64,000 nucleotides of DNA from Microbacterium foliorum (lineage in GTDB: Bacteria; Actinomycetota; Actinomycetes; Actinomycetales; Microbacteriaceae), in NCBI RefSeq assembly GCF_006385575.1, contig NZ_CP041040.1, positions 372,001 to 436,000 on the forward strand, in the 5' to 3' direction. Position numbers and translations under genes: made by a program. Shown here one piece after another: positions 52,159 through 54,252 of this stretch. Under the pieces are notes generated by a model. That model was not told the origin of the DNA, made no database searches, and saw nothing but the letters and a program-made list of their open reading frames with translations. Position 1 is the first letter of the stretch. Every line of letters begins with the position of its first letter.

Positions 52159-54252
52159 TCAGAACAGCATCGGCTGCGCGGGGGCGGGGGTCGGCGTGAA
52201 TGCGGGTGCCGGGCGGCCGTGCGGTGCGGACGCCCGGATGCCGCGCACCGGGTAGTCGTCTTCGTGCTGGCCGTCGAGGCCGTGCAGTCTGATCAGCGGT
52301 CGTGCCCGCTTGGCGAGCCATTGCCGATAGCCCTTGGGCGCCTCGGCTGAGACGCCCGGATACAGACCCCGATATGACGAGACGAGGTCGGGACGGAACT
52401 CGCCGAGCCACTGCATGAACCAGGGCTTCACGCCAGCACGCAGGTGGAGAGCGCCGTAGATGACGCGATTCGCACCCGCCTCCTTGATGCGACGCAGGGC
52501 CGTGTCGATCGCCTCGACCGAGTCGGTCATGTGCGGCATGATCGGCATCAGGAACACGGTCACCCGGAATCCCGCATCCCGCAGTGCGCGCACCGTGTCG
52601 AGTCGTGCCTGGGTCGTCGGCGTGCCCGGTTCGATCGCCTTCTGCAGCTCGTCGTCGTACATCGCGATCGACATCTGGATGTCGACGGGCACGCGCTGCG
52701 CCGCCTTCACCAGCAGGGGGATGTCGCGTCTGATCAGCGTGCCCTTGGTGAGGATCGACATCGGGGTGCCCGACGCGGCCAGGGCCTCGATGATCCCCGG
52801 CATGAGCTTGTAGCGGCCCTCGGCGCGCTGATACGGATCGGTGTTCGTCCCCAGAGCGACGGTCTCGTGCTCCCAACTGCCTTTGCGCAGCTCTCGCTCC
52901 AGCACTTCGACGACGTTGACCTTCACGACGATCTGCGAGTCGAAGTCCGAGCCCCCGTCGAGATCGAGGTACTCGTGCGTACCCCGAGCGAAGCAGTTGT
53001 GGCTGATGACGCCGTTGGCGACGAAGTCTCCTGTGCCGGTCGTGATGTCGAGGAGGTCCTGCTTGCCCGGGAGTTGGGCGATGCCGACGACCTTCAGGTC
53101 GGCGACGCTCTTCACCGCAGTCCCCTCGATGGAGAGCTTGCGAGTGATCGCCGGCGAACAGATCGCGAAGAATCGTTGGCGGCTAGGAAGCCCGCCGACG
53201 ACCCTGACCGTTCGCACCCCGTTCGGGCGTGCCCCTTCGACGAGGTGGGGTATATGGAACTCGCGCATGCCACGCTCGATCAGCGTGATGATGTCCGCGT
53301 CCTTGTTCGAAATCCGCAGGACGCCACGGGAGCAGCTGCCCTCCGCATCGAAGATCCCGGCAAGGAATCCCGCGAACCAGTCAGGTTCCGGTGCTTCGGG
53401 AGTCTTCACCAGGGATTCGATCGTCTCGACGTGACGCCTGGCGGCCGTGTGAATCGCGTCCGCAGCACTGCGCGTGTCGCTGGCGACCGCGAAGGGGCGA
53501 GTTCTCGTCGGCACCCCCTCCTCCTCGAGGAACCGACGAGTCCTGTCGAGAGCCTCCCGGTCGATGAGCGCGAGACGGAAACTGTGGATCTCGCGTGTTC
53601 TGGTCTCGCTCGCGTACGTGCCGTGGAAGATCATGCCGTCGCCGCGAATCATGCCCGAGAGATAGCCGCGGCGATACCCGGTCGAGAGCACATCGACTGA
53701 CGCCCCGGCGGTTCCGACCCCGAATCCCATGAGCCGATTGTTGGTCGTGAGATGCGGACGTTGCCCGGAATCGGCATCCGACACATGCTTCCAGCCGCGC
53801 TCCGTCAAGAAGCGGTGATCTCCACTCGCGACGAGTTCCGTCCCGTCGGCGAGCGTGACTCTGTGTGCACGCTTCCGCGTCGACCATTTCGCCTTGATGG
53901 TCGTGCGAACGTAGCGTCGATAGCTGCCCTGTCGCTCGGTTCCGATGATCTCATCGCCGATCTCGAGTGAACTCAGAGGGCGCTGACGCCCGTCCGCGCA
54001 GAGGATCAGAGTGTCCGGCGATAGGCAGTACACACACGCATGACTGCAACCGCGGTAGGGGTTGATGGTCCACGCGAACGGCATGCGCGATGCGCCGGGA
54101 ACATGGTTGAGCGCGGACTTCGACAGCACCTCATGGAAGGTCATGCCCGCGAAGTCGGGAGTGGTCACCGTGCGGAGCACACCGGTGCGCTCTTCGAGGC
54201 CGGGCAGCGCTGCGGCATCGACGTCGCCGAGTTTCTGTCCTTGCCACCGCAT
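52159..54252 (-). CDS. Rv2578c-family radical SAM protein containing an intein
   Basis: 697 residues as translated; 353 after removal of a 344-residue intein. The extein is a radical SAM enzyme of the Rv2578c/SplB-like type: NPYRGCSHACVY-C gives the CX3CX2C [4Fe-4S] motif, followed after the intein by FARGTHEYLDLD, ALGTNTDPYQRAE, SILTKGTLIRRD and VFLMPIMPHMTDS. The intein starts at Cys76, the third cluster cysteine, and ends at Asn419; Cys420 restores that cysteine after splicing. Starts at the ATG at 54252; upstream in-frame sequence is not conserved-looking. Divergent from the VanY-type gene. The enzyme's substrate is unknown. Confidence 0.92.
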   Translation of the reverse strand: MRWQGQKLGDVDAAALPGLEERTGVLRTVTTPDFAGMTFHEVLSKSALNHVPGASRMPFAWTINPYRGCSHACVYCLSPDTLILCADGRQRPLSSLEIGDEIIGTERQGSYRRYVRTTIKAKWSTRKRAHRVTLADGTELVASGDHRFLTERGWKHVSDADSGQRPHLTTNNRLMGFGVGTAGASVDVLSTGYRRGYLSGMIRGDGMIFHGTYASETRTREIHSFRLALIDREALDRTRRFLEEEGVPTRTRPFAVASDTRSAADAIHTAARRHVETIESLVKTPEAPEPDWFAGFLAGIFDAEGSCSRGVLRISNKDADIITLIERGMREFHIPHLVEGARPNGVRTVRVVGGLPSRQRFFAICSPAITRKLSIEGTAVKSVADLKVVGIAQLPGKQDLLDITTGTGDFVANGVISHNCFARGTHEYLDLDGGSDFDSQIVVKVNVVEVLERELRKGSWEHETVALGTNTDPYQRAEGRYKLMPGIIEALAASGTPMSILTKGTLIRRDIPLLVKAAQRVPVDIQMSIAMYDDELQKAIEPGTPTTQARLDTVRALRDAGFRVTVFLMPIMPHMTDSVEAIDTALRRIKEAGANRVIYGALHLRAGVKPWFMQWLGEFRPDLVSSYRGLYPGVSAEAPKGYRQWLAKRARPLIRLHGLDGQHEDDYPVRGIRASAPHGRPAPAFTPTPAPAQPMLF
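52996..54027 (-). other. LAGLIDADG-bearing intein inside the radical SAM gene
   Basis: 344 residues. Splicing block A begins CLSPDTLILCADG; block B has ELVASGDHRFL with the conserved His; blocks F/G end DFVANGVISHN with penultimate His and terminal Asn, followed by the +1 Cys. The homing endonuclease has two LAGLIDADG-like helices, LSGMIRGDGMI (intein residues about 123-133) and FLAGIFDAEGS (about 221-231), with the acidic catalytic residues D130 and E229 in place. All residues needed for splicing are visible, so it is probably active. Confidence 0.93.

Follow-up and report, generated by a model that had tools for sequence, protein, structure and literature searches.

MoaA is a radical SAM enzyme. 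Callahan et al. reportedly described in 2011 a Pyrococcus abyssi MoaA intein with a disulfide linking host Cys-3 to intein Cys1. The same disulfide is given in passages of two reviews (PMC10663303, PMC3922620). In a second system, a mycobacterial DnaB intein was halted by H2O2; that intein belongs to class 3 and its disulfide is internal. According to a 2014 review (PMC4031507), no role of physiological relevance had yet come to light for conditional splicing. Intein-containing radical SAM proteins of the Rv2578c family are already collected as NCBIfam family NF038136, whose members have the same host family, the same intein and the same junction as the gene analysed here. We found no substantive difference between this gene and that family, of which it is another member.

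Results

The window, a 64,000-nucleotide stretch of the Microbacterium foliorum genome, contains on its minus strand a gene for an Rv2578c-family radical SAM precursor (52162..54252, stop codon 52159-52161). The precursor is 697 residues long when read from Met 54252, which is one choice among the in-frame starts (54261 and 54396 are others). Its N-extein (54028..54252, minus) comprises 75 residues, as delimited against 69 intein-free congeners, and ends in GCSHACVY, so that the radical SAM motif C-SHA-C-VY, with Cys-7 encoded at 54046-54048 and Cys-3 at 54034-54036 (minus), runs directly into Cys1 of the intein. The intein (52996..54027, minus) spans 344 residues, CLSPDT...GVISHN, from the Cys1 codon at 54027-54025 to the Asn344 codon at 52998-52996. 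Block A, CLSPDTLILCADG (53989..54027, minus), supplies the Cys1 nucleophile, block B, ASGDHRFL (53806..53829, minus), a histidine, and blocks F and G, LLDITTGTGDFVANGVISHN (52996..53055, minus), the penultimate His and terminal Asn; each of these residues is present in 42 of 42 Microbacterium carriers. Between them lie two LAGLIDADG helices, GYLSGMIRGDG (53635..53667, minus) and FLAGIFDAEG (53338..53367, minus). The catalytic Asp of the first is found in 35 of 35 full-length copies, a count that includes the frame-broken copy L056, whose letter at that residue is meaningless, and the catalytic Glu of the second in 34 of 35, the exception being Lys in L060. The C-extein (52162..52995, minus) has 278 residues and starts CFARGTHEY; its first residue, Cys+1 (52993-52995, minus), is the third iron-sulfur cysteine of the mature enzyme, which after ligation would measure 353 residues. 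The sequence-only reading had placed a 344-residue intein at the third CX3CX2C cysteine in an Rv2578c-type host, flanked by Cys1 and Cys+1, with complete splicing blocks, two LAGLIDADG helices and a 353-residue product. This was exact to the base, and the comparison that it proposed with intein-free homologues confirmed the junctions (69 congeners and one more). Neighbouring genes encode a YaeQ protein, a VanY-type carboxypeptidase and an acyl-CoA dehydrogenase.

Profile searches assigned the gene to a family already known. The precursor matched NF038136 with 766 bits (cut-off 700) over profile positions 1-574 of 574, and the plain host model NF038135 with 485 bits against a cut-off of 430. 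Among the 120 matches listed of 7660, NCBI uses the NF038136 name for Microbacterium copies with 60-88% intein identity; the intein is thus of a kind already known and named by NCBI. General intein models scored the precursor protein slightly below their cut-offs (N-terminal 21.4 bits, cut-off 24.5; C-terminal 13.2, cut-off 15.6), as did the Pfam intein splicing domain (23.8 versus 35.8 bits); in the genome search the N-terminal model rose above its cut-off, with 25.5 bits. Radical_SAM and LAGLIDADG_3 (25.5 bits, cut-off 22.5) were over threshold in Pfam. At the sequence level, a profile built from 50 inteins matched I-DmoI, the endonuclease 1dq3, DnaB inteins and gp41-1 inteins in the PDB. 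The likeness to mycobacterial DnaB inteins is weak and was seen for the N-terminal splicing region, with a helicase model and with the PDB DnaB inteins. Cys or Ser at position 1, a block B His, a C-terminal His-Asn and Cys, Ser or Thr at +1 place the window copy and 42 of 42 carriers in class 1, and the two helices with acidic catalytic residues identify a LAGLIDADG homing endonuclease. A second intein in this genome was considered and rejected: the N-terminal intein model matched once genome-wide, at the radical SAM gene. A weak tblastn match (16.6 bits, G000:C1:2086797) was taken as chance, the opposite strand there looking by eye like an ordinary gene.

One alternative is that the 344 residues form an ordinary domain, which remains part of the enzyme. 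This would fit the open and continuous reading frame, but it is already contradicted by close homologues that have the gene without them. In the intein-free congeners C-x3-C-x2 runs directly into C[FY]AR (69 loci and one more read), leaving a seamless junction. The splicing residues are conserved, and shortened versions have lost the endonuclease but retain the splicing parts. We regard this alternative as almost certainly wrong.

To place the insertion in the genus, 149 Microbacterium genomes were scanned, the window genome included, of which 144 matched the host model. Both junctions were found in 42 carriers (L056 counted); one further copy was truncated, one (G124) starts at a contig edge past the insertion site, and 100 were empty, 70 of these read at the locus and 30 inferred from a match span of about 945 bases. 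Carrier inteins are 343-348 residues long in 35 genomes, 154-160 in five, and 197 and 228 in two; in the seven short ones the splicing residues remain, and the endonuclease is wholly or partly lost. The truncated copy, L225 (G134), consists of the N-terminal part of a short intein with no recognisable C-extein, and L056 (G019) is a decayed allele with a stop and a shifted frame inside the endonuclease. The decay of both may be assembly error.

The position of the intein raises the question of how it affects the iron-sulfur site. The sequence-only reading held that the motif is interrupted and that no [4Fe-4S] cluster could be bound before splicing. The linear spacing CX3CX2C is in fact present in the precursor, through Cys-7, Cys-3 and Cys1, and is complete again after splicing, with Cys+1 in place of Cys1. 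A working cluster in the precursor is nonetheless unlikely, because its third cysteine is the splicing nucleophile and presumably lies in the Hint active site. One consequence might be a metal trap, in which iron or a nascent cluster on Cys-7, Cys-3 and Cys1 delays splicing and couples it to iron supply. The motif is whole in the precursor, all 42 carriers have Cys at intein position 1, and inhibition of some inteins by divalent metals is mentioned in an excerpt of a review (PMC4031507); against this, Cys1 is the usual class-1 nucleophile anyway and the fold near it is expected to be unlike that of the enzyme. We consider such a trap highly improbable.

A redox-gated intein is a second alternative. 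Under oxidation a Cys-3/Cys1 disulfide would block the first splicing step, and an oxygen-sensitive enzyme would be released when the cell is reducing. The pair described for P. abyssi MoaA in passages of two reviews (PMC10663303, PMC3922620) is present in 42 of 42 carriers, and an oxidation-sensitive intein has been shown experimentally in a mycobacterial DnaB. The MoaA protein belongs to another host family; what it has in common with the window gene is this geometry, known here from sequence. Cys-3 is, however, Cys in 111 of 111 genes, 69 of 69 empty ones as well as the carriers; it is a cluster ligand, so its invariance gives no evidence of a selected switch, and no sign was found that it is kept specifically for a trap as in the MoaA type. 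Moreover, host position -3 is not Cys beside three related inteins, L221, P0227 and P0239, so the pair does not belong to the intein as such, and 100 of the 144 congeners with the gene, the two nearest included, do without an intein. A conserved internal disulfide was rejected on the grounds that Cys10 occurs in only 20 of 42 carriers and intein cysteines number 1 to 5; the window family therefore shows no conserved internal partner, in contrast to the class 3 DnaB intein. The sequence-only reading proposed that splicing here could respond to oxidation or metal. The geometry makes redox regulation possible without indicating selection for it, and redox gating appears unlikely to us.

Base composition had been read as a sign of recent homing. 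The G+C content of the intein (64.05%) is indeed lower than that of the N-extein (64.89%), the C-extein (67.03%) and the window (68.27%), and a value this low occurs in 3.5% of 630 windows of 1032 bp. The difference from the exteins is small, and it is shared across the genus: the intein lies below its host in 40 of 42 carriers, by a mean of 2.9 points, so composition is no mark of recent arrival. Synonymous divergence agrees. The nearest inteins to the window copy, L057 and L058, are 85% identical, and against L057 the intein dS of 0.782 equals, in effect, the extein dS of 0.825, as under shared descent. Recent arrival of the window copy is not supported on these grounds. The nearest host genes, L110 (96%) and L072 (94%), are both without the intein, which would mean loss in their lineages or regain in that of the window.

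For the family as a whole, movement left clearer traces. A quick host-protein tree with SH-aLRT support only was built from 110 rows, namely 68 empty, 35 full and 7 short genes, with the partial gene L071 left out. On it, presence of the intein changes 27 times, at least 15 of these changes being forced by well supported branches, and short versus full changes seven times, at least six of them so forced. The label is somewhat clustered, as shuffling gave a mean of 33.8 changes and 5 of 500 shuffles were as low as 27. Host clades are largely mirrored by the intein tree, from which, as from the divergence pairs, L056 was left out for the stop in its intein. L002 and L045 are a candidate transfer, with 74.5% identity of the intein and 66.7% of the host.

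Across 708 pairs whose exteins differ by a dS of at most 0.9, the median intein/extein dS ratio was 1.7, although values near or above 1 call for caution since codon bias differs between intein and host, the intein's GC3 lying on average 8.8 points lower. Two pairs stand out in the other direction: L057/L058, with an intein dS of 0.063 against 0.43 for the extein (ratio 0.15), and L047/L055, with a ratio of 0.32. The L057/L058 inteins are 96.7-99.2% identical and the C-extein falls to 80.7%; some windows flanking the gene are 98-100% identical, as alike as the intein, so this case depends on the contrast with the extein. A third pair, L061/L064, is a mosaic in which the first 450 intein bases are 85-87% identical and the remainder about 99%. 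Together, these sequence comparisons point to movement and recombination between species. Patchiness and the two low-divergence pairs among 708 would likewise imply movement into empty alleles for the family. A search for a phage or plasmid with this very intein, which could explain its spread, found none that was close.

The endonuclease is constrained (dN/dS below 1), less so than the other parts. In full-length pairs with an endonuclease dS between 0.05 and 1, median dN/dS was 0.37 for the endonuclease and 0.21 for the splicing part (30 pairs); the extein median, from 28 pairs, was 0.16. Constraint on some endonucleases may be relaxing.

Beyond Microbacterium, the host model was matched in 85 of 120 genomes of a family sample, and an insert, judged from long match spans only, was present in 8 of the 83 matches outside the genus, in six genera. 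A phylum sample gave matches in 115 of 246 genomes, and all 20 loci with long spans, besides the window's own, carried an intein at the third cysteine. With the Rv2578c model, sixteen of the 20 scored 375-491 bits and three of these exceeded its cut-off, and the C-exteins of L113 and L123, tested with both models, fit Rv2578c better than PA0069. The remaining four, L129-L132, differ: their C-exteins score higher with the PA0069 model (296-311 bits, the cut-off of 360 applying to the whole protein) than with Rv2578c (174-184 bits), which indicates that a second family has a related intein at its homologous cysteine. They form one group (support 93) beside the Rv2578c inteins of the phylum.

Named genomes contributed at least 597 pattern matches, at least 563 of them relatives. 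Of the best 80 loci, from Microbacterium, Leucobacter, Cryobacterium, Agromyces, Promicromonospora, Isoptericola, Micromonospora, Geodermatophilus and other genera, 77 were parsed and showed a clean junction; the N-extein frame of L207 is broken, and a contig edge leaves 17 bases of L189 ahead of the intein. In Cryobacterium algoritolerans (L177) the intein begins with Ser, and the reading frame breaks further downstream, in the C-extein. A record titled Stenotrophomonas maltophilia P13 (L152), from another phylum, holds an intein 62% identical to the Microbacterium one and is likely a contaminant contig.

Related inteins were also found at the corresponding cysteine of more distant proteins. 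A viral contig (IMGVR_UViG_3300028805_000420, L216 1887-3788) encodes a radical SAM protein with a full-length relative inserted at its third cysteine, and this gene is flanked by those for a major head protein and a head maturation protease; a homologue without intein in the phage record MT835521, which is marked unverified (L223), reads CAYCYAKS. On a Streptomyces plasmid (NZ_CP129127.1, L222 1339-3171), the last cysteine of the CX6CX2C motif in a DUF5131 protein is the site of an intein. The plasmid table, which is incomplete, gives no gene at this locus. Identity to the window intein is 47-50% for L129-L132, 36% for L216 and 31% for L222, and the last two are long, unplaceable branches in the tree with L129-L132.

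A search with the L222 intein returned 177 proteins, and the figures that follow are from the 120 listed, with hosts labelled by precomputed Pfam domains (four proteins rechecked). The intein starts at the last motif cysteine in 66 of 73 DUF5131 proteins, 38 of 40 Radical_SAM proteins, 2 of 2 DUF1848 proteins and 1 of 5 others; the rest (7, 2 and 4) were unparsed, and a stricter first pattern had parsed fewer. We take DUF5131 and DUF1848 to be radical-SAM-like. For eight DUF5131 proteins and one Rv2578c protein the C-terminal end was implausible and only their start at the motif cysteine was used. Among the matches listed, relatives of the L222 intein occur in many DUF5131 and PA0069-like metagenome proteins.

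The inteins of PA0069, DUF5131, DUF1848 and the phage radical SAM protein thus resemble the window copy in having C-x-x before Cys1 and a Cys+1 that is the last motif cysteine, and differ from it in host family and, for L222, in the CX6CX2C spacing. In the five loci compared (L113, L129, L131, L216 and L222) the DNA from +1 reads TGY TWC GCN, which L221 does not share. L221 (292-3561), a 'radical SAM protein-like protein' of Virus Rctr197k with 25.9% identity to the intein, was rejected as a radical SAM host; Pfam gave only Hint and SNF2-type matches, both under cut-off, and no radical SAM match, and its name probably derives from its intein. P0227 and P0239 belong to the five other proteins of the L222 search; P0239 gave a weak PD-(D/E)XK match. 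In the open-licence literature, at title and abstract level, we found no papers on this insertion or on an insertion point shared across families.

These observations allow a broader reading, in which one LAGLIDADG clan covering Rv2578c, PA0069, DUF5131, DUF1848 and the phage radical SAM protein is specialised on the last cysteine of CXnCX2C motifs and spreads through TGY TWC GCN, the decoy motif formed by Cys1 gating splicing by iron or disulfide. The hot spot itself is supported; the reading as a whole strikes us as quite improbable.

Discussion

The locus is very probably an ordinary class-1 LAGLIDADG homing intein that is spliced scarlessly and whose site is set by invariance of DNA and protein and by the need for Cys+1, not by redox sensitivity. 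The precursor would be translated as one chain; Cys1 would attack first, the N-extein would be passed to Cys+1, and Asn344 would then cyclise, joining the radical SAM halves without a scar, with Cys+1 as the third of the [4Fe-4S] cluster ligands. The endonuclease would cut intein-free alleles at the DNA for the invariant third cysteine, and repair would copy the intein in. Such a site would be used because neither its DNA nor its protein sequence is free to drift and because it supplies Cys at +1. We infer from sequence that the window precursor splices and that the endonuclease cuts DNA, and, more broadly, that splicing here is unregulated and that the site was chosen for these reasons. Since the site is shared across families together with TGY TWC GCN, and some hosts lack Cys-3, endonuclease recognition and the requirement for Cys+1 in our view explain the position better than redox chemistry.

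The element would cycle in the genus from gain through endonuclease loss and decay to the empty state; the patchy host tree, six or seven endonuclease losses and the two species pairs of low divergence point, at the level of sequence, to such a homing cycle. Full-length, endonuclease-deleted, decayed and empty alleles are all held by one genus at one site, which provides a natural series for this cycle. The use of the same cysteine position in several families is the part that specialists would follow up, and the setting allows DNA-level reasons to be tested against redox or metal control for inteins at iron-sulfur cysteines.
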